A stretch of DNA of 31,516 bases, from positions 1-31,516 of the IMG/VR virus record IMGVR_UViG_3300025759_000410; one strand, given 5' to 3'. The translations under genes and the position numbers were made by a program. The notes beneath the pieces are model-generated. The model was not told where the DNA came from, did no database searches, and saw only the letters and a program-made list of their open reading frames with translations. Of the stretch, positions 931-27,836 are shown piece by piece (the stretch's first letter is position 1; every line of letters begins with the position of its first letter). Origin of the DNA: a virus.

Positions 931-3900
931 TTAAACAATAGTCCAGGTAGATCCAGAAGGTACGGTGACAGTTGCACCGGAGTTGATCGTCAAAGGTCCA
1001 GCACTAATCACGTTTTTACCAGTGCTAATGGTGTAAGAAGTAGTAATGGTGTTGTCATGTTCGACAGCCCATTGGTCTCCTCCACCGCCAGTAGCACCGC
1101 CTCCAACGCTTGACCATGCAGTACCGTTGTAACCTTCAAACTGGTCAACGTCGTCGTTAAAACGAATCATGCCTGCAGCAGGTGTACTGTCACGTTGAGC
1201 TTCAGTACCTACAGGTAGCTGTGCAGAACCAGTGTCAGAAGTTTTATCAACAAAGTTGGTATCTACATAATTTTTAGTAGCTGCATCTTGTGCATCCGTA
1301 GGATCACCAACACCCGTAACCTTATTAGTACCCATTGCCAGGTCACCTGACATGGTGCCACCAGCGTCGGCAACAAAATTTGTATCTACATAGTTCTTGG
1401 TAGCTGCGTCTTGTGCACCGGTTGGGTCATCAATACCAATCAGCCTTGTTCCGCCAATACCTAGTGGGTCAAAGTTAACATTACCTGTACCACGTGGGTA
1501 GATTTCAACATCACTACCAAGATCACTAGTAATCTGTTGTTTTACATTAATACCGCCACTATTAGCATCAAGTGTTAAATCACCAGTACCTGTGGTAGTA
1601 ATTGAACGATCATCTAGGATAAGATTATCAATGTTAGTTGTGCCCGTACCGTTTGGTTCGATAACAATATTACCATTAGACGCGCTGACAATCTTCTTAC
1701 CGTTGACATCCAAATCACCACCAAGCTGTGGCGTTTCATCTGACACCAGGTTAAAGGCAATAGAACCTTCAGGAATGGTAACGAAACCAAGCTGCTGGTC
1801 TACTTCAAAGAACGGGTCATCAGTCTGGTTACCGCCAATCTTAAACTTACCGTTGTGGTCAGTAACTGCAGTCCAAACTTTACCGTTGTTGAGTTCAGTG
1901 ATCTGTTTGGTTTCATCCGGTACACCACCATTTTCAGGCAATGCATCGTAGTCCATGCCACTACCAACATACTCCATAGTGTGACCACTAGAAGCAATTT
2001 GGGAACGAAGGAAGAACGATACGGCAGCGTTGTCAGCTACAGCGCCATTAAGTCCAAGGTTGGTACTACGGTTGTCAGGATCAGGACGACTAATAGTAAC
2101 CCTGTGTCCACCAGTAATAACAGTAGACGACAGAATAGGATAGGTGACACTGTTGACAGTAACAAGCATGTTGCTCGCCGGTTTAGTTTGACTACCAAAC
2201 CAACCTGTACCTGCAGTAACGTTATCAATGTCAAACGTCAGATCGCCGCTAGAAGCTGCACCGTTAACTGTTGCAGTAAAAATGGCAGCAGTAGACTTAC
2301 CATCAGCAACCAATGCCTTTTCACCAAAATCAGTGGTAGAAGCAGCCAGGTTGGCTTGACCACCATTTAATGCTTTGATGTGATACTTGTTAAAGAAGGC
2401 GTAGCTAGACGTACACTGTGCATAACCATTGTTAGTAACAAGGATGCCAGGTCCGTTAAGACCAACGTGTGTATAGCTGTCTGCAACCATCGACCGCAAA
2501 GGACTTGTGGTCTTAGGCACAGAACCGTCAATCAACATACCGCCGCCGGTAGGAGCGTTAGTCAAGTCACCTGCAGAACCGCCACGTGGACGATGAGCCC
2601 GCAGATCGCTGTTGTCAATCTGACTATCAGAGAAGTTAGTACAGTTTTGAATATAAGGAGATTTGGTGATAAACGAATTGTTATAGAACGTAAAGTTCCA
2701 ACCTTGTTTATCAGGCAGATCAGAGTCAATACTGTTAGTACCAGAGCTGCTGGCTTGCATACCAGTCAACGTCAAGTTTTGAATAAACGAACCACTGTTC
2801 AATTCAAACAGTGCAGAGTTGCCAGCATTTGATGGTTTTTCAGTTGCAACAGTTGGGTGTACAATAGTGCTACGCAATGCCATGCCAATAATAGACACGT
2901 TACGACGTTTGATTTGAATAGGAGCAGCTTCCTGATAAACACCAGCAGCCACGATCACGGTCATACCGTCACCACCACCAGTAACTTCAAGCTCAAAACC
3001 TGAACCGCCACCAGCACCAAGGTTAGAATCAGAAGCAGACAAGATGTCACCAATCTGATACTCCTCAAGCGTAGATGCGCTAATATCAGTAACTGCTGTC
3101 ACAGCACCACCAGACACTGTAATGTCTGCAGTCAAACCTGAGCCAGTAGTACCACCAGTCAAGGGTACATCTTGATATGTACCATCAGTATAGCCTGAAC
3201 CAGCAGTTTTAATAGACGTATTAATGTCTGCGTTAATATCGTTAATAGCCTCTTTAATGGTTAATTTAGGACCGCTAATACGATGACCGGTTTTTGAATC
3301 GTCACCACCAGTTGCATCAACGTAAATAACTTTATCTTGGGTTCGGAAAGAACCACCAGACGCAACATCTAGCCAAGTGCTACCATTCCAAATTTTAAGG
3401 GTTTGGTCGTCATCATTTTGCAACCAAGTCTTACCAACTTCATAACTGCTTTCACTAGGAGTACCAGTTTGTACAAGGGTATCGAAACGTTTAACAGCAG
3501 CAGATGCAGTAAAAATATTACTATCTGCAGGAGTTGGAGAACCAGAATCCTGCTCAGTTTTAGTAATAATATCGTCGTTTTTAATACGATCAAAATCTAC
3601 AGAGTTAGAACCAATACCAAGCGTAATAGTGCCATCACCATCATCAGTAACGGTCAAACCAGTATTATCAACAGCAATATCACCAGTAATGGCAGCATCG
3701 ATCATGTCATCGATTTTAGCTGTAGTGGCGATAGTAGTATCGTTGTTAGGGTTTGCTTCTGATGAAGTGACAAGATCTTCAGGCTTAATTTTATCAAGGT
3801 CAACTGACCCTTGATTAATACTAATAGTTGTTTGCCCACCCCCAAAGGTTCTTGTAAGACCATCACCAACAAGGATGTCACTTTCAACTACATGGTCAAC

Positions 3901-4539
3901 ATAATTCTTAACGGTACCTGTTGTAGGTACAGCGACATCATCGTCAGGAATCACATCGCTGGCTGCTGCCAGCTCAGCCTTAGTAAATGTATCGTTTACT
4001 TCGTCTTGGAACCGTGCGTCAAGTGCTGCAGTAGTAGCAATCTTGGTGTCATCGCTGACCCAAGTGTCACCATCATACAACGTATTGTCGTAACGGTCCC
4101 AGTAATAATCTTTTAGGTACTGATCAACATCATCAGGAATACCCTGACAGTTAGACTCTTGAATAGCATAACGGAGCTGTTCAAAGTTAATATTCAGATC
4201 ATTAGACCGAATGGCAGAACCAGGGTTGAACAATGCCCGGATGTCGTCCACCTTAGTGATTCGACGAATCTTAACATTGTCAACCGTGGGTTCACCAGGA
4301 TCTGTAGGAGTAGTCGGGGCAGGTGGAGCGGTCCCCGTAAACTCTACGATCGTTGGGTTGGCATCAGTAATCTGCCAAGGGTAGGTGGCATCTGTCGTAA
4401 GCTTCTCGTCGTATTCTTTTGTAGTCGCGTTCCAAAAATAAACGTGAATCTCAGATTTAAAAATATACGGGAAATCAAAAGAGAATTGTGTCTTTGACCC
4501 GTCTCCAGCTTGAATTGTTTGTACGTCAGAGCACGCCAT
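931..4539 (-). CDS. Tail fibre protein (T7 gp17-like N terminus)
   Basis: A 1202-aa fibre. Residues 1 to about 130 match the phage T7 tail-fibre N-terminal domain that anchors the fibre to the tail (MACSDVQTIQAGDGSKTQF, then KVDDIRALFNPGSAIRSNDLN and QLRYAIQESN). Residues 160-390 hold repeated fibre motifs (DDTKIATTAALDARF, NNDTTIATTAKIDDM, TGTVKNYVD). At about 404 VIYVDATGGDDSKTG starts a right-handed beta-helix-like region (VYQEAAPIQIKRRNVSIIGM, near 534-553) of the pectate-lyase or DUF1565 type. It is interrupted at about 447-520 by a Gly-rich module (SGYTDGTYQDVPLTGG ... GSGFELEVTGG). Near the C terminus are two copies of a DAATKNYVDTNFV repeat. The N terminus is conserved for attachment; the rest is probably the host-contact part. 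Its ATG follows an AT-rich leader (TTAACTAACT) without a Shine-Dalgarno sequence. Confidence 0.93.
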   Translation of the reverse strand: MACSDVQTIQAGDGSKTQFSFDFPYIFKSEIHVYFWNATTKEYDEKLTTDATYPWQITDANPTIVEFTGTAPPAPTTPTDPGEPTVDNVKIRRITKVDDIRALFNPGSAIRSNDLNINFEQLRYAIQESNCQGIPDDVDQYLKDYYWDRYDNTLYDGDTWVSDDTKIATTAALDARFQDEVNDTFTKAELAAASDVIPDDDVAVPTTGTVKNYVDHVVESDILVGDGLTRTFGGGQTTISINQGSVDLDKIKPEDLVTSSEANPNNDTTIATTAKIDDMIDAAITGDIAVDNTGLTVTDDGDGTITLGIGSNSVDFDRIKNDDIITKTEQDSGSPTPADSNIFTASAAVKRFDTLVQTGTPSESSYEVGKTWLQNDDDQTLKIWNGSTWLDVASGGSFRTQDKVIYVDATGGDDSKTGHRISGPKLTIKEAINDINADINTSIKTAGSGYTDGTYQDVPLTGGTTGSGLTADITVSGGAVTAVTDISASTLEEYQIGDILSASDSNLGAGGGSGFELEVTGGGDGMTVIVAAGVYQEAAPIQIKRRNVSIIGMALRSTIVHPTVATEKPSNAGNSALFELNSGSFIQNLTLTGMQASSSGTNSIDSDLPDKQGWNFTFYNNSFITKSPYIQNCTNFSDSQIDNSDLRAHRPRGGSAGDLTNAPTGGGMLIDGSVPKTTSPLRSMVADSYTHVGLNGPGILVTNNGYAQCTSSYAFFNKYHIKALNGGQANLAASTTDFGEKALVADGKSTAAIFTATVNGAASSGDLTFDIDNVTAGTGWFGSQTKPASNMLVTVNSVTYPILSSTVITGGHRVTISRPDPDNRSTNLGLNGAVADNAAVSFFLRSQIASSGHTMEYVGSGMDYDALPENGGVPDETKQITELNNGKVWTAVTDHNGKFKIGGNQTDDPFFEVDQQLGFVTIPEGSIAFNLVSDETPQLGGDLDVNGKKIVSASNGNIVIEPNGTGTTNIDNLILDDRSITTTGTGDLTLDANSGGINVKQQITSDLGSDVEIYPRGTGNVNFDPLGIGGTRLIGIDDPTGAQDAATKNYVDTNFVADAGGTMSGDLAMGTNKVTGVGDPTDAQDAATKNYVDTNFVDKTSDTGSAQLPVGTEAQRDSTPAAGMIRFNDDVDQFEGYNGTAWSSVGGGATGGGGDQWAVEHDNTITTSYTISTGKNVISAGPLTINSGATVTVPSGSTWTIV
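1249..1445 (-). repeat. Tandem fibre repeat inside the tail-fibre gene
   Basis: Two copies of a coding repeat about 120 bases apart (roughly 1249-1325 and 1372-1445). They encode DPTGAQDAATKNYVDTNFV and DPTDAQDAATKNYVDTNFV. The DNA differs at several wobble positions, so this is an old duplication. The NYVD-type repeat is common in trimeric phage fibres. Confidence 0.75.
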
Positions 4540-8482: not shown

Positions 8483-11119
8483 TTATCTAAATGAGTTTAG
8501 TATCTCAATGTCTTCTGCTGTCAGCGGTCTCATAAGACCACCAAGATGCAGATGGGTTGCGTGAGCAGGATCACCATCGCCAGGTCCGATCACTTCTTTG
8601 AAAAGATTCATAGAACGAATCAGTTCTTTAAGTTGTCGAGTTTTTTCGATGGATGTATCGTAATCACCTGTTTGGTGTGTAATGTCAAATGCTTCACCAT
8701 AACCGTGGAAACTGTTACCTGCATGTACAGGAGCAACACCACCAAAGTCAGGATGTTCGGCTACTTGAAAACCAAGTTGTTGCAGGGCTTGACCAGTTTG
8801 TTGATAAGCACCTCTGTTGCCCTCATAAGTCAAGGCATCAGTAAAGGATCTCTTAAGGCTGTTACCTGCAAAACCTGCTCTAAGATTAGAAGGTTGTGCA
8901 ACAGTACCAGCAACCTGTTGTAAAGCACGGATTCTTTGTTTAGGACCGTTAATAGCGTTAAACAAATCCTGACGTTGTTGGTCAGACATTGTGCTATTAA
9001 TACTTTTAATAATTGCTGGGGGTTCTAAAGGTAACAAGTTAGGATCTCCAAGTGCTGCAATTTGACGGTTGATAACCGTAAAAGGATCAAGACCATTGCC
9101 CATGCCAGTAACTGCAAGGACATCCGTAGGAACTACAAAACCAGGCTTACCATAGCCAGATACAATAGACACAATCTCATCTCTAGTAAGGATGCTTTCT
9201 GCTGTGTCTAAGGTTTTTTCTAATCCCTTTGCTCCACCACCGTTATCAATAACACTATGTACAATTGCTTGATAACTGCGTCTAGCTTCTTCGAATGCGC
9301 TTAAATTAGCTTTTGAGTATAGATTTGGAAATTGAGCAGCGCCGCCAGGTCCACCCGGTTTACGGTAAAACAAAGAGTCCGGGTCCTTTGACCTGGCTCC
9401 TGCTTTAACTTCATTTTCAATTTCTTTAGCTATTAACTCAGCTGCAGTGTTAAAGGCTGCTTGATCAGCATTGCCCCCAACACTTCGATCTACTCTTTTA
9501 CGGAATTCAGCACGCATAGCTCTTTGAAGAGCTAAACTAGTTGCACTGTTAGGTTTTTGGCTACCATAACTGGTCACACCATTTGCAGTAGTCTTAAAGG
9601 CATCGGATAGGTCTTTGTAAACACCTGAGTTATACTTAGCCTCTTGCGCAGCAAAACGTTTTTCTAAGTCTTTACCAGCAGTAGCGTCTAGACGTTTAAG
9701 TGCGTCAACATGCTCCCTAAGGATAAACCCGTCAGGCATAGACTCAAGTTCTTCTACTTGTTTAGCTTTAGACTCTGCTTCAACAGTATAATTTTCTAGA
9801 TATTTAGTAATACTTGCAGGTACTTTACCGTAAGTTTTTTTAAATCGATTTGCAGCTGATTCTACATAATCTTTGGTAGGATTTTGGATGATCAGTTCAA
9901 GAGCATTTTTCTCTGCTTCTTTGTAAGAAAGATCATCTGCTTTAATCTGTGCATTTCTATACTTATTATCGTCTTCCAAACGTGCCTGCAATATAGCAGC
10001 AAATCGTCCAGGTCGTTCTTTTGCATACGGTTTTTCACCAGCTTGCAACACAGTACCTGCCAGCTGTTCTGTACTAAACAAATACTTACCATCAGGACCA
10101 CGCATTGTAGCAAGACTTACATACCAGTCATGTGCTTTTGCATAGTCGTTACCGTTTGCACGGCGGACCATTTGGAATGACTGGCTGATATTATTGCCAA
10201 ACTCTGTAGGGTTTTGAGTTAGAATAGTAAGTGCGCTATCAGCATATCGCTGGTTTTCATTTTCTATTTCTTGCTCACGGCGGTCAGATAAAATAGATTG
10301 GTGGTGTTTTGCTTGAAACTCTAGAGCAGTTCTCATGCTACCAGGTTTAAGACTCATCCCACCTTCAGCTCTAAACCTATCAGAAACAATCTTAGACACA
10401 TCTGTCATGTATCCAGCAAGTTCTGATGAGGTCAAAGGACGACCTAAAGTATCCTCTTGCTTTTTAATAGCTTCGTTAAGAAGTTGTGGGTATTTATATT
10501 GATAGAAAAATGCAGCCTTACCCTTCAGGATTTCACGTCTAACGCGGTCACTGTAGTTACGAGATTTAGCAACAACTAACGGATCACCACCTCTAGCTTC
10601 ATACTCATCTAATTGAGATTGCTGCATTTCATCTAGAACATCCAACCCCAACTCATTACGAATAGTGTTTAGATTTTCATCATAGGGGTTTTGTAGATAC
10701 TCTTCAAGAGCTTGGTTGATCGTCTTGTCTTCTTCAGCCTCAACATACTCTGAATAGGCTTTACCGGCAGACTCGCTAATACTTGAGATGCTTTGTAAAA
10801 TAGAAGCGTTGTCTCTTTGATTTTGCTCGTATTGAGCTTGCTGAGCCCGTGCTTCCGCTTGAATGCCTGTTAGCTCTCGTTGGAAGTTTTGTGTTTGAAT
10901 TTGGCGATTGGTCTCGCGCTGGCCTGCTTCTAGTCGTTGGTTTTCTTTTTGTTGCGCAAGGATCTGTTCACGATTTTTGATATCAGCGTCCCGTACATCG
11001 CGCATGTTTTGCACAACACGGGCGCTCTCCTCACGCATACGAGCGATGTTATCTCCACTTACTTGTATAGGACGAAAACCAGCCCCTTGAGCAGCCCTCC
11101 TGTATTGTACTTGTTTCAT
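8483..11119 (-). CDS. Internal virion protein (gp15-like) with C-terminal LAS/M15-type peptidase signature
   Basis: An 878-aa protein starting at ATG 11119, 4 bases after the preceding stop. An in-frame extension to 11218 is possible but would lie inside the preceding gene. Residues 1 to about 140 are Gln/Arg/Glu-rich and probably coiled coil. The middle is helical with no recognised motif. Residues 803-812 read SFHGYGEAFD, an exact SxHxxGxAxD motif of LAS metallopeptidases (M15/VanY/VanX fold). HLHLG at 856-860 supplies the HxH element. Likely zinc ligands are His805, Asp812 and His858. Such enzymes cut peptidoglycan peptides, so the domain could open the cell wall during DNA ejection or lysis. 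Position matches T7 gene 15; the enzymatic role is inferred from motifs only. Confidence 0.85.
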   Translation of the reverse strand: MKQVQYRRAAQGAGFRPIQVSGDNIARMREESARVVQNMRDVRDADIKNREQILAQQKENQRLEAGQRETNRQIQTQNFQRELTGIQAEARAQQAQYEQNQRDNASILQSISSISESAGKAYSEYVEAEEDKTINQALEEYLQNPYDENLNTIRNELGLDVLDEMQQSQLDEYEARGGDPLVVAKSRNYSDRVRREILKGKAAFFYQYKYPQLLNEAIKKQEDTLGRPLTSSELAGYMTDVSKIVSDRFRAEGGMSLKPGSMRTALEFQAKHHQSILSDRREQEIENENQRYADSALTILTQNPTEFGNNISQSFQMVRRANGNDYAKAHDWYVSLATMRGPDGKYLFSTEQLAGTVLQAGEKPYAKERPGRFAAILQARLEDDNKYRNAQIKADDLSYKEAEKNALELIIQNPTKDYVESAANRFKKTYGKVPASITKYLENYTVEAESKAKQVEELESMPDGFILREHVDALKRLDATAGKDLEKRFAAQEAKYNSGVYKDLSDAFKTTANGVTSYGSQKPNSATSLALQRAMRAEFRKRVDRSVGGNADQAAFNTAAELIAKEIENEVKAGARSKDPDSLFYRKPGGPGGAAQFPNLYSKANLSAFEEARRSYQAIVHSVIDNGGGAKGLEKTLDTAESILTRDEIVSIVSGYGKPGFVVPTDVLAVTGMGNGLDPFTVINRQIAALGDPNLLPLEPPAIIKSINSTMSDQQRQDLFNAINGPKQRIRALQQVAGTVAQPSNLRAGFAGNSLKRSFTDALTYEGNRGAYQQTGQALQQLGFQVAEHPDFGGVAPVHAGNSFHGYGEAFDITHQTGDYDTSIEKTRQLKELIRSMNLFKEVIGPGDGDPAHATHLHLGGLMRPLTAEDIEILNSFR

Positions 11120-11123
11120 AGTT

Positions 11124-12128
11124 TTATGCGATGTTGTAAGTAGAACCCGGCAAAGGTGTGTACCCGCTTGGTGCAATTGGGAACATGTTGCCTGCGGACG
11201 TGGTTGGGTTTGAAACACCGCCGCCTACGCCGCCTCCACCACCAAAAGCACTGCTCCAATCCACACCAGCAAGCGACGAAGCTGCACTACCGAATCCAGA
11301 GATAAGAGGTGCAATTGTGCTTTGCTGTTGTGCTGGTGGGATATATTGTGGTGTAGCTTCCATTGGTGGCATGAAGATCGTTTCCGGTCCCAGTTCTGGC
11401 ATAGGAATATCCATAGGCTTCATCGGTTTAATCATCATAGATGCCCTAGCCTGCATGTCTGCACCAAACTTTTGCAAAGTAATTGCTCGCATGTTGCGTT
11501 GAGATTGCTCAACAGAACTAGCTAGACTTGCATCTGTAATAGCAGCATTACGACCGGCAGCAGCTACTCTTGATTGGATAGCTTTGTTTCTTGAGACACC
11601 ACCTTGAAGCATTGCAGCACGTCCTTCCTGCTCTAAGCGATCTACAAGAGCACCTTGCTTATTAAAGGCATCTTCTGCCTTTATATCATTTAGGGCAGCT
11701 TGCTCGGCTGAATACGCATCAGCTGCAGCAATACTATTAAAAACCAGCTGATCTTCTGTGTTCTGCTCTGATTTAGCATAACGTCTTAAAACATTGAGGT
11801 ATTCAAAGTCTTGAATTGACTGGTCATACTTCCATTTTTTAATTGCAGTTTCGTATTGAAAAGCTCTATTGTTGTAATAGTTTTGCTTAGTAATTGCAAA
11901 CTTTTCAGCGTTATATTTGTTGGTTGCTTTAGCCTGTTTTTTAGCAAGTTTTTCCTGCTTCTTTTGTGCTCTCCTAGCAGCAGCATTTTGCTTTGATGCA
12001 GAGCGGGAACCCATGATTCCGCCAACAATAGCGGTACCCGCACTAATAGCAGCGGCAACCCAGTTCATCTCCAAACCAGAGAAAGCCAGTTGATCGTCTA
12101 GGAGATTATTACTTTTTGGATTAAACAT
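11124..12128 (-). CDS. Internal virion protein, gp14-like
   Basis: A 334-aa protein in the T7 gene 14 position, directly after tail tubular protein B (TAATG overlap). The N terminus has a short hydrophobic stretch (NWVAAAISAGTAIVGGIMG, about 22-40) typical of gp14-type internal core proteins that enter the outer membrane at ejection. Next is an Ala/Lys/Gln-rich helical region (about 45-75) and a helical middle. The C terminus is Pro/Gly-rich with a polyglycine stretch (FGGGGGVGGG). ATG at 12128 is supported by a strong AGGAGGG six bases away on the coding strand. A second Met at codon 21 lies just before the hydrophobic segment but is less likely. Assignment is by order, composition and length; no catalytic motif is expected. 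Confidence 0.82.
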   Translation of the reverse strand: MFNPKSNNLLDDQLAFSGLEMNWVAAAISAGTAIVGGIMGSRSASKQNAAARRAQKKQEKLAKKQAKATNKYNAEKFAITKQNYYNNRAFQYETAIKKWKYDQSIQDFEYLNVLRRYAKSEQNTEDQLVFNSIAAADAYSAEQAALNDIKAEDAFNKQGALVDRLEQEGRAAMLQGGVSRNKAIQSRVAAAGRNAAITDASLASSVEQSQRNMRAITLQKFGADMQARASMMIKPMKPMDIPMPELGPETIFMPPMEATPQYIPPAQQQSTIAPLISGFGSAASSLAGVDWSSAFGGGGGVGGGVSNPTTSAGNMFPIAPSGYTPLPGSTYNIA

Positions 12129-18630: not shown

Positions 18631-18972
18631 TCAGAACTTATACTTAGCACCCACCTTGGTGCCGAAGCCGTTCTCATCTCCAGTAATGATCGAGACTTCC
18701 CCGTATACAGACAGAGCCTCGCTCAGGTCATAGGAACCACCTGCTTTACCAGACAGTTCAGTGGTAGCCTCAGCACCGTCAGGTTGGATGAGGGTAGTAC
18801 CACCTTGGACATACCAGTTAGCACCTTCGTAACCAACGTGAACGTCCGTAGCAGCACCGGTGTAATCGTCACCGTAGTAACCGGCGTTCGATTCGATGTT
18901 TGCGTAGGGACCAGCAATAGCGGCACCGTGTGCCATGCCGAGGAGGAGACCGGAAGCAATAATAGATTTCAT
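18631..18972 (-). CDS. Small secreted beta-barrel-like protein (113 aa)
   Basis: Residues 1-20 form a typical signal peptide: Lys2, a hydrophobic core IIASGLLLGMAHGAAIA, and cleavage after an AxA-type site before GPYAN. The mature part (about 93 aa) has alternating hydrophobic/polar strands rich in Gly, Tyr and Thr (DVHVGYEGANWYVQGGTTL, LSVYGEVSIITG) and ends GTKVGAKYKF. That C-terminal Phe with alternating aromatics is the classic outer-membrane beta-barrel signal. It may therefore be inserted in the host outer membrane during infection. At this size it would make at most a few strands and would have to be a fragment-like or multimeric barrel. It lies between a 54-aa basic ORF and psbA. Function unknown. 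Confidence 0.8.
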   Translation of the reverse strand: MKSIIASGLLLGMAHGAAIAGPYANIESNAGYYGDDYTGAATDVHVGYEGANWYVQGGTTLIQPDGAEATTELSGKAGGSYDLSEALSVYGEVSIITGDENGFGTKVGAKYKF

Positions 18973-25961: not shown

Positions 25962-26077
25962 CTGCCTTGCCCCCGATAAGCTTTCTTACCACGCTTGGGG
26001 ACGGAATTACGTCCGCTGCCTTGACGGGTTTTCTTTGCGACTGATTTAATCTCAGTCTTGTTTTTCTTGCTGTACAT
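25958..26077 (-). CDS. Tiny basic protein (39 aa)
   Basis: ATG at 26077 to TGA at 25958: MYSKKNKTEIKSVAKKTRQG followed by SGRNSVPKRGKKAYRGQGR. It overlaps the polymerase stop as TAATG and the exonuclease start as GTGA, so it bridges the two genes exactly. Nearly a third of the residues are Lys or Arg. It is likely nucleic-acid binding, in line with its replication neighbours; family unknown. It echoes the basic style of the 19-aa and 54-aa ORFs after hli. Confidence 0.72.
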   Translation of the reverse strand: MYSKKNKTEIKSVAKKTRQGSGRNSVPKRGKKAYRGQGR

Positions 26078-27348
26078 TAATGAGTTTCACTCCAGTTGTT
26101 TCCGTGGGTTGCTTCCGCGTCGATGCGGATGCGCATGTTGTAGTACTCCCCAGCTGCTGTAGCGCTGTATACCAGGGATGTTGATAAGTCCCCAACGTGT
26201 TCTGGGGCGCATTCAAATTGTAGTTCGTCATGAATAAAGGCTAACTGCGATGCACATAGCTGTGCGTCTCGCATTGTGTCTTGGTTGATAACCATCCACC
26301 GCTTTGCGATAACACCGGCTCCTGACTGGAGGCAGTAGTTCAACGCTTTGTGAGGTGAATCAACCGCAATTTTTCTTCCGTCGATAGACTTGATGAACCC
26401 TCTCTCCGAAGCTTTTTTGATAGCTTCGAGCAAGTCACCCAATCCTTCAATTGCTTCGACGTATGCTGCACGGATCTCTTTACCCTTTGCTTTAGCTTTT
26501 GCAGTGGAGAGTTGTGGGTCATAACTGTGTCCGATTTTTTCGTCACCCGCACCGTACAGCATAGCGTACGTCACGGTCTTCACAGCCCTACGGCTGATAC
26601 CTATTCGGTCAGCGTTGACCTGGTGGATGTCTCCGTTGAGGAGGATGTCGGCATAACGTCCTTCATCATACTTAGCCAAATAATGGGCAAGCATACGAAG
26701 TTCAATGCCAGACAAATCAGCCCCGACCATATGTAACCCCGGACTCGGGATAAAGAGCTTTCTAAATCGTTCATCAGCGGGGGTCTGCCCAAGGTTGGGG
26801 TTACGGTGGGCACATCTGTGCGTGTTAGTTGCGACGGAACAATGATGATGGATACGCTTAGCAGTCGTACTCAACTTCAGCCAGGCGTTTGCGCCTTCTG
26901 AGATCATTCCAAGCATCTTCGTTATCGTCAAAATCCGGAGGAACATCGTCGCTACTTCCGTCCCAATCTCCTTCAGGATCACCTCGTCGATAACAGGTTT
27001 CCCAGTAGTCGTCTTCTGCTTTGGAGTCCAGCCATAGAATTGTTGCAAGATCCATGATATATGATCGCGAGAGGATGTGTTGAGTTCTTTCAGTCGAGTA
27101 AAGGATGCACCCTTGACATATCCTTGCGTGCGGTTATCTCGTTTAGGAGTGAATTCCGATCCTCGGACGAAAGGGTGCCGGTTTCGTAGTAGCTCTTCAG
27201 TTTCTCTAAGTTCTTGTCTGAGAGTAAATGCAAGTTCCCATGCAGCGTTCTCATCAAAAGCCCATCCATGAATTTCTTGTTGTGTGAGGATTTCTTGTAC
27301 CCTGTGTTCTAGCGCGACCCACTCAGGTATGGGAGGAAGTGGTGCCAT
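26077..27348 (-). CDS. DNA polymerase A family, polymerase domain (gp5-like, split)
   Basis: Start at ATG 27348 (423 aa), overlapping the exonuclease ORF by 40 bases; the frame is open up to 27405. All three polymerase motifs are intact: motif A Asp211 (GADLSGIELRMLAHYL), motif B RRAVKTVTYAMLYGAG (Arg253, Lys257, Tyr261), motif C HDE with Asp374 (FIHDELQFE). Comparison with T7 gp5 from memory: WVALEHRVQEILTQQEIHGW matches the region after the T7 exonuclease domain. The segment equivalent to the thioredoxin-binding loop, before SSRDHI, is about half as long. With the separate exonuclease ORF it would form the replicative polymerase. It may be two proteins or a frameshifted one. Confidence 0.93.
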   Translation of the reverse strand: MAPLPPIPEWVALEHRVQEILTQQEIHGWAFDENAAWELAFTLRQELRETEELLRNRHPFVRGSEFTPKRDNRTQGYVKGASFTRLKELNTSSRDHISWILQQFYGWTPKQKTTTGKPVIDEVILKEIGTEVATMFLRILTITKMLGMISEGANAWLKLSTTAKRIHHHCSVATNTHRCAHRNPNLGQTPADERFRKLFIPSPGLHMVGADLSGIELRMLAHYLAKYDEGRYADILLNGDIHQVNADRIGISRRAVKTVTYAMLYGAGDEKIGHSYDPQLSTAKAKAKGKEIRAAYVEAIEGLGDLLEAIKKASERGFIKSIDGRKIAVDSPHKALNYCLQSGAGVIAKRWMVINQDTMRDAQLCASQLAFIHDELQFECAPEHVGDLSTSLVYSATAAGEYYNMRIRIDAEATHGNNWSETH

Positions 27349-27836
27349 AATTTTGTTGTGACCTTCACGTCTTGAATACAGTAGTCCTCCATTTCTTGTG
27401 ACCATGTTTTCCAGTCAGAATTGCTTCCGTAGTTTCCTTTGTGTTCTTTAAGCCTGTGACCGTATGCTTCAAGCGAGTGCTTGCCGTACAACTTTAGAGG
27501 CATACCATCCCAGTTATGCTTTTTATCTAAGTTAACCATGTCTGGATGATACAGCCTGCTGAGTAGCAGAGTGTCAATCACGTACGGTTTTTGGAACCAA
27601 GGGTAGAGCTTGCAGATAACAGGTATGTCATACCCTATGATGTTGTGACCAATGATTTGATCAGCATCCGCAAGTCTCTGTATGCCCCTACTAATCGGTT
27701 CTTGATTACCTTCGTCGTTATACGATAAGGTTTGGTCCGTCGTGAGATCATGGATAGCCAGGCAGTGGATGGTAGTAACATCTTTTAACAGTCCGTCTGT
27801 TTCTATGTCAAAGACTAAACTCACTTCCCGTTCCAT
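27309..27836 (-). CDS. DNA polymerase 3'-5' exonuclease domain (split gp5 N-terminal part)
   Basis: A 175-aa proofreading domain with Exo I (DIETDG; Asp10, Glu12), Exo II (GHNIIGYD; Asp70) and Exo III (YCIQDVKVT; Tyr152, Asp156). It corresponds to the N-terminal part of T7 gp5 (Asp5, Glu7, Asp65, Asp174). The ORF ends just after Exo III (KLWHHFLPYLSGSR), where T7 gp5 continues into the polymerase. The polymerase ORF lies in the -1 frame and overlaps by 40 bases. So this is either a true two-gene polymerase, a programmed frameshift, or a sequencing error. Its ATG at 27836 lies inside the end of the 43-aa ORF. Confidence 0.92.
   Translation of the reverse strand: MEREVSLVFDIETDGLLKDVTTIHCLAIHDLTTDQTLSYNDEGNQEPISRGIQRLADADQIIGHNIIGYDIPVICKLYPWFQKPYVIDTLLLSRLYHPDMVNLDKKHNWDGMPLKLYGKHSLEAYGHRLKEHKGNYGSNSDWKTWSQEMEDYCIQDVKVTTKLWHHFLPYLSGSR

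Follow-up and report, generated by a model that had tools for sequence, protein, structure and literature searches.

The last ~120 residues of a gp15-like internal virion protein form, quite likely, a LAS zinc peptidase that would be carried in the virion core and would open host peptidoglycan during genome entry. We also consider it rather probable that cyanopodoviruses in general use the gp15 C terminus as a place to exchange enzymes that open the wall, and that one of the modules exchanged is a circularly permuted LAS peptidase.

The protein is encoded in the window, i.e., the whole 31,516-base stretch of a virus record analysed here (Table 1). Its minus strand carries, in this order, the genes for tail tube A and B, the gp14-like, gp15-like and gp16-like proteins and the tail fibre. 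The record also includes a psbA gene, identified from its translation, which indicates that the virus is a cyanophage, with a T7-like gene order. The nearest isolate is Synechococcus phage S-RIP1, whose gp16-like and major capsid proteins are 77% and 78% identical to those of the window. The gp15-like gene runs from an ATG at 11119 to its stop at 8483; reading from an upstream GTG would give 911 residues, and the ATG was taken as the start because it lies 4 bases past the stop of the preceding gene and homologues agree. The product matches phrog_24152 at residues 1–326 (E 8e-16) and phrog_90 at residues 255–741 (E 5e-101), the latter labelled “endolysin” in the PHROGs annotation. As a large core protein in the gene order gp14–gp15–gp16, it corresponds to a T7-type gp15, and from this order and the families matched we infer that it resides in the virion core. 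The original prediction had assigned the peptidase to one of the internal virion proteins, at its C terminus, which agrees with a gp15-like gene lying between gp14-like and gp16-like ones. It had also seen no transglycosylase in the gp16-like protein, in line with the lack of any Pfam SLT match in either the gp15-like or the gp16-like protein. Its argument from a missing lysozyme gene does not stand, since the 31.5-kb fragment stops at the tail-fibre side, short of the region where relatives have their lysis genes.

Table 1. Positions of the features discussed, in the window unless a locus is named.
Feature	Coordinates	Strand	Basis or remark
gp15-like ejection (internal virion) protein, ending in a predicted LAS-type zinc peptidase domain	8483..11119	-	878 aa
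gp15-like body (“chassis”), residues 1-735, common to relatives with other C-terminal modules	8915..11119	-	BLAST/tblastn, phrog_24152/phrog_90
LAS-type zinc peptidase domain (predicted), residues ~757-878	8486..8851	-	Alignments A2/A3, AlphaFold2, sub-threshold Pfam, PDB profile matches
Motif 1, residues 799-812 (HAGNSFHGYGEAFD): H799; H805 and D812 as probable zinc ligands	8684..8725	-	Invariant in 42 homologues and phage tail proteins
Motif 2, residues 853-858 (HATHLH, HxxHxH): H858 as probable zinc ligand; H856 and H853, probably catalytic	8546..8563	-	Invariant; spacing of VldE H370/H373/H375 (PMC11667670)
gp14-like internal virion protein	11124..12128	-	phrog_20153 (E 2e-81) and a weak match to phrog_805 “internal virion protein”
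gp16-like internal virion protein, 1307 aa	4556..8479	-	phrog_6651 “internal virion protein”, E 0
Tail fibre, T7-type N terminus	931..4539	-	Pfam Phage_T7_tail E 9e-11
HxH-first module, L077	6284-6652		C terminus of gp15-like ORF
HxH-first module, L079	8221-8538		C terminus of gp15-like ORF
HxH-first module, L133	4953-5297		C terminus of gp15-like ORF
HxH-first module, L114 (S-CBP3)	2989-3309
HxH-first module, L110	3855-4202

Some other features of these records deserve mention. The gp16-like protein, a single ORF in the window, is annotated as two in S-RIP1 (L001, 8349–9140 and 9143–12346), probably owing to a frameshift or sequencing error in that record. The DNA polymerase of the window is found as two overlapping ORFs in different frames on the minus strand (26077–27405 and 27309–27836), with an exonuclease part of 175 residues and a polymerase part of 442, either a real split or a contig frameshift. 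Beside psbA, a 113-residue protein (18631–18972, minus strand) with a signal-peptide-like start and a repeated aromatic/Gly pattern resembles a small outer-membrane beta-barrel.

Sequence and predicted fold of the C-terminal domain

Residues 803–812 (SFHGYGEAFD) fit SxHxxGxAxD exactly, and an HxH element follows at 856–858 (HLH, with HLHLG starting at 856); the translation bears out both, as originally described. Their occurrence exceeds chance: when the gp15-like protein was shuffled 20,000 times, the first pattern arose in 5 shuffles, and together with a following HxH in none; it has a single match among the 23,048 residues of six-frame ORFs in the window. Half of the protein's histidines (6/12) fall within residues 796–860.

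Our IMG/VR searches yielded 49 loci with the domain. Among the 42 distinct C termini compared, with identity down to 34%, H799, H805, E809, A810, D812, H853, H856, H858, G860 and G861 are invariant. Weak tblastn matches led to four outside phage proteins (the tail proteins of cyanomyoviruses S-SM2 and S-CAM22, a Microcystis phage protein and a Brevibacterium phage tape measure protein) with the same two motifs, and H799, H805, A810, D812, H853, H856 and H858 are still invariant after these are added. The Ser and Gly of the pattern vary among homologues (S/G and G/D/N, respectively) and the ligands stay constant. Conservation of His805, Asp812 and His858, named beforehand as a test, was found in all 42 C termini; these three residues remain the probable ligand set, to which we add H856 and H853 as putative active-site histidines by analogy with VldE. 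Of 47 loci, 42 have the gp16-like gene next after the domain; in four of the remaining five, the sequence stops at the domain or shortly past it.

The two cyanomyovirus tail proteins (L084, 2114–4651, in S-SM2; L087, 2777–5365, in S-CAM22) are annotated as “transglycosylase”/“endolysin” and carry the domain as H...H...AxD...HxxHxH; in S-SM2, its gene is close to that of the baseplate hub/tail lysozyme. A scan of genome contigs gave one candidate cellular relative (L083), which was rejected as a wrong-frame match in a GC-rich genome.

As to the family, single-sequence searches of Pfam, NCBIfam and the PDB with the domain returned no match above thresholds. The sub-threshold Pfam matches among 19 members were to Extensin-like_C (13/19), VanY (4/19) and M15_4 (4/19), all of which we take, from their clan assignment, to be LAS families. 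When a broad profile (A3) was run with hmmsearch against 177,635 PDB sequences, hedgehog N-domains took the first 23 places (best E 0.0045); their alignment falls on H..SLHYEGRALDIT and on HAQDSLHYEGRALDIT. DacB and LdcB came next, and the DD-carboxypeptidase 1LBU lower, amid unrelated weak matches. Judged by sequence, the top-ranked matches are all LAS proteins. With hhalign, the domain aligned to M15_4 peptidases from bacterial genomes (P 1.7e-5), the first motifs of the two falling in register; reversed or shuffled controls gave P ≥ 0.22.

The AlphaFold2 model built from the 19-sequence alignment (pLDDT 89, pTM 0.82) has the order helix, strand, strand (D812), helix, strand, strand (H858), matching that of LAS domains. 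A Foldseek search of the PDB with this model recovered no LAS structure at a significant level, LdcB coming 38th (E 0.23), and the fold is therefore supported by sequence and topology rather than by structural superposition. The weak Foldseek matches were mainly to PLP enzymes; we judged these non-specific and gave them no part in the case for LAS. In BFVD, there is a close match to a protein of an “uncultured marine virus”, whose name, “exonuclease”, seems to be mistaken, and there are weaker ones to cyanomyovirus proteins.

The original prediction of a zinc peptidase of the LAS/M15 kind is thus supported in one part and not in the other. Invariant ligands, profiles, hhalign and strand order argue for the LAS type; the profile comparison brought up LAS families as best Pfam matches, with VanY and M15_4 below the curated cut-off, and the structure prediction was confident and of LAS strand order, with a Foldseek LAS match short of significance. 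Strict M15 membership was not supported. The acid that many M15 enzymes have three positions ahead of the last His ligand is absent, the position being a variable one occupied by Thr855, with HxH instead, and since the acid-xx-His feature was not found and no Pfam threshold was reached, we do not file the domain as a strict M15 member. Its spacing is instead that of MT3 enzymes: H805/D812 and H853/H856/H858 correspond to H301/D308 and H370/H373/H375 of VldE. However, 9FLH (VldE) is not among the PDB matches of profile A3 up to E 10, and at the place of VldE R294 there is V798/H799 and no Arg, with His799 next to that position, so that the domain would work like an MT3 enzyme but is not classed as one. 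Taken together, sequence criteria support a LAS (clan MD) zinc peptidase module, with zinc binding and activity predicted.

It is conceivable that the LAS fold and the zinc were kept while the enzyme activity was lost, the domain binding peptidoglycan or stabilising the core in the manner of non-enzymatic hedgehog-type LAS domains. The hedgehog domains at the top of the PDB matches and the lack of both the M15-type acid and the VldE-type Arg would agree with this; we nevertheless regard it as quite improbable, given that ligand and active-site histidines are all invariant over very divergent phages and that the alternative modules at the same site, described below, are enzymes. An active peptidase is the reading that we carry forward.

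Exchange of modules on the gp15-like body

BLAST and tblastn alignments of the body stop at residues 735–752 in S-RIP1 and in loci L072–L074 and L076–L078, and at residues 691–697 in L079–L081. The S-RIP1 homologue aligns to residue 735 and then continues into a phrog_90 “endolysin” domain of lysozyme type; its tblastn matches include an annotated tail lysozyme (E 4e-4). By eye, a lambda-R-like lysozyme had been suggested for it, which PDB phmmer did not confirm, and we call it phrog_90 lysozyme-type. A third module, “NDPFIVAIGINEGTRTAGGGTTSAYRGHTDPGDG...”, sits on the gp15 body of L072 (7180–7722), L073 and L074; no family match was found for it, and it may be another wall enzyme. A fourth one is present in L077 and L079–L081. 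Four module types are therefore found on gp15-like bodies of the same lineage: LAS, phrog_90 lysozyme-type, an unnamed one and an apparently circularly permuted LAS. In S-RIP1, L072, L077 and L079–L081, the gp16-like proteins are 60–77% identical to that of the window and the capsid proteins, where present, 72–90%. Conserved neighbours with differing modules mean that the C terminus changed while the adjacent genes did not.

Among isolated cyanopodoviruses, several of the proteins in the gp15 position share phrog_24152 with the window protein, and phrog_90 is likewise a family in common. Their C-terminal modules are SLT plus M23 in S-CBP4, glucosaminidase plus M23 in S-SRP01, glucosaminidase in S-CBP1, a SleB-like Hydrolase_2 in S-RIP2, S-SBP1, MedDCM S45-C4 and S-B28 (below cut-off in S-B28), and SLT_3 with a permuted LAS motif in S-CBP3. 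In Syn5 and P60, the protein just upstream of the gp16-like gene has a sub-threshold match to Phage_lysozyme2, and no recognised module was found in P-SSP7, P-SSP2, 9515-10a and P-GSP1. Judging from these sequences, the gp15 C terminus looks like an exchange site for wall enzymes among relatives, a sort of tool holder.

The body itself also varies. In L051 (3745–6381), the gp15 body is 26% identical to that of the window, against 92% for tail tube A and 75% for tail tube B; in L036 (3790–6444), body and module are at 66% and 72%, against 92% for the gp16-like protein. Such divergence suggests exchange or fast change of gp15 itself.

In the fourth module, the HxH element comes ahead of the HxxxxxxD motif. 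Its profile has VldE as the sole PDB match (E 0.031), and its AlphaFold2 model (pLDDT 93, pTM 0.87) reads strand, strand (HxH), helix, strand, strand (D), helix, which is the order of the window domain with the last two strands, those of the HxH element, shifted to the front. A rotation test of the profile gave no difference between rotated and unrotated forms, so that permutation is argued from the order of the motifs and of the predicted strands. Foldseek returned no LAS match for the permuted model, as would be expected of a sequential aligner faced with a permuted fold. On the model, circular permutation of a LAS domain is likely but not proven, and none of the open-licence papers searched was found to describe a permuted LAS peptidase. 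Large proteins of other phages contain the same module as well (L135, from residue 984 onward, L136, L138, L140 and L141), mostly in ORFs of 1178–1228 residues; in the two that were checked, L135 and L140, no relatives of the window's gp16-like or tail-tube proteins were detectable.

Predicted role at genome entry

The strongest argument for reading the window domain as a wall enzyme is that other wall-degrading modules occupy the same position on homologous bodies. It is chiefly on this ground that the wall-opening role originally suggested, with a chemistry other than that of T7, finds support. The details may be sketched from VldE (Spr1875), an L-Ala/D-Glu (L,D-) endopeptidase acting on cross-linked peptidoglycan, in which H301, D308 and H375 hold the catalytic zinc and H373 and H370 are proposed to be catalytic (PMC11667670). 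Given the equal spacings, we propose zinc-dependent cleavage of wall peptides during formation of the ejection channel. The gp15-like protein would carry the peptidase domain in the capsid core and be delivered to the host envelope as infection starts. A single zinc ion would be bound by His805, Asp812 and His858, with His856 and His853 polarising the water and steadying the transition state, as proposed for His373 and His370 of VldE. The domain would then cut a peptide bond in cross-linked peptidoglycan, and this local opening would let the gp14/gp15/gp16 channel form and the DNA pass. The role of the T7 gp16 transglycosylase would in this way be filled through peptide instead of glycan cleavage.

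Since the exact bond cannot be read from the sequence, the substrate might also be an envelope protein or the phage core proteins instead of peptidoglycan. We hold this to be very unlikely: LAS peptidases of the same spacing (VldE and TM4 MT3) cut peptidoglycan, and the swapped modules are peptidoglycan enzymes. Timing is another matter to consider. If gp15, or a processed C-terminal piece of it, degraded the wall for lysis late in infection, the domain would be a phage endolysin, as the PHROGs name of phrog_90 would have it; the annotation of S-RIP1, the closest relative in isolation, lists no lysozyme gene of its own, and none is evident by eye among the small proteins downstream of its fibres. 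Yet the gene sits in the ejection-protein operon, flanked by gp14-like and gp16-like genes; in P60 and S-SRP01, the wall enzyme of the gp15 region is accompanied by an endolysin or glycoside hydrolase encoded in a gene apart; and virion-borne wall enzymes mostly act at entry (PMC5380687, PMC6116005). A lysis role is thus unlikely in our view, and peptidoglycan opening at entry remains the preferred reading.

Wall enzymes on ejected core proteins are known from the T7 gp16 transglycosylase and the gp36 lysozymes of SP6 and phiKMV (PMC5380687, PMC8954989). A survey of ejection proteins places the wall enzyme on gp16, and lists SP6 gp36 as gp15-like (PMC8954989). According to reviews of 2017 and 2018, the virion wall enzymes of phages with Gram-negative hosts are nearly all glycan cutters; P5 of phi6 was the sole demonstrated endopeptidase for such hosts, the other virion-borne endopeptidases coming almost exclusively from phages of Gram-positive hosts (PMC5380687, PMC6116005). 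Papers on cyanopodoviruses describe gp15-region proteins as internal core or hypothetical proteins, without a wall function (PMC4646655, PMC9860041, PMC5345008). The database entry of MedDCM S45-C4 already reads “peptidase domain-containing protein”; in the open-licence papers searched we found no description of a peptidase on a gp15-type protein or of the extent of module swapping.

The peptidoglycan of marine cyanobacteria is unusually thick and cross-linked for Gram-negatives. A core-protein endopeptidase in their phages, as predicted here, would add an ecologically important group to the Gram-negative list. The exchange of modules at a single position amounts to a natural experiment: close phages carry different wall chemistries, which allows the kind of module to be compared with the wall type of the host, with growth phase and with host range.

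Likeness to known systems

Among characterised enzymes, the window domain may be set beside the MT3 domains of pneumococcal VldE (PDB 9FLH) and of the tape measure protein of mycobacteriophage TM4, which show HxxxxxxD and then HxxHxH, each motif spaced internally just as in the window domain. TM4 MT3 is likewise part of a virion protein, a tape measure protein that hydrolyses peptidoglycan and aids DNA entry into stationary cells (PMC1796659), a function that for the window enzyme is predicted. The window domain differs in having no significant match to 9FLH, a His at -6 but no Arg at the R294 position, and a podovirus core protein instead of a tape measure protein as its carrier.

In sequence, the closest are phage tail and tape-measure domains of the form HxxxxSxHYxGxAxD...GHxxHxH (LuckyBarnes TMP, Mwe-JY05, S-SM2 and S-CAM22) and the hedgehog N-domain. 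The former share both motifs and an additional His, placed six residues ahead of the first ligand; the latter share the first motif. Unlike the window protein, these relatives are long-tail or contractile-tail proteins or animal signalling proteins, and the hedgehog domains, the closest solved sequences, are of uncertain peptidase activity of their own. With Peptidase M15, VanY and Extensin-like_C (clan MD), the domain has in common the HxxxxAxD motif and the final H, but it falls below every curated cut-off and has HxH in place of acid-xx-His.

Among ejection systems, T7 gp16 also bears a wall enzyme on an ejected core protein, at the N terminus of gp16 and cutting glycan, whereas the window enzyme is at the C terminus of a gp15-like protein and is predicted to cut peptide. 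SP6 gp36 and related proteins carry theirs on a gp15-type ejection protein too (PMC5380687; PMC8954989), SP6 gp36 being a lysozyme and the window domain a predicted peptidase. A further comparison is with SWVG_00006 of S-RIP1, with the same body (44% identical) and the same gene order, whose phrog_90 lysozyme-type C-terminal module is unrelated in sequence to the window domain.
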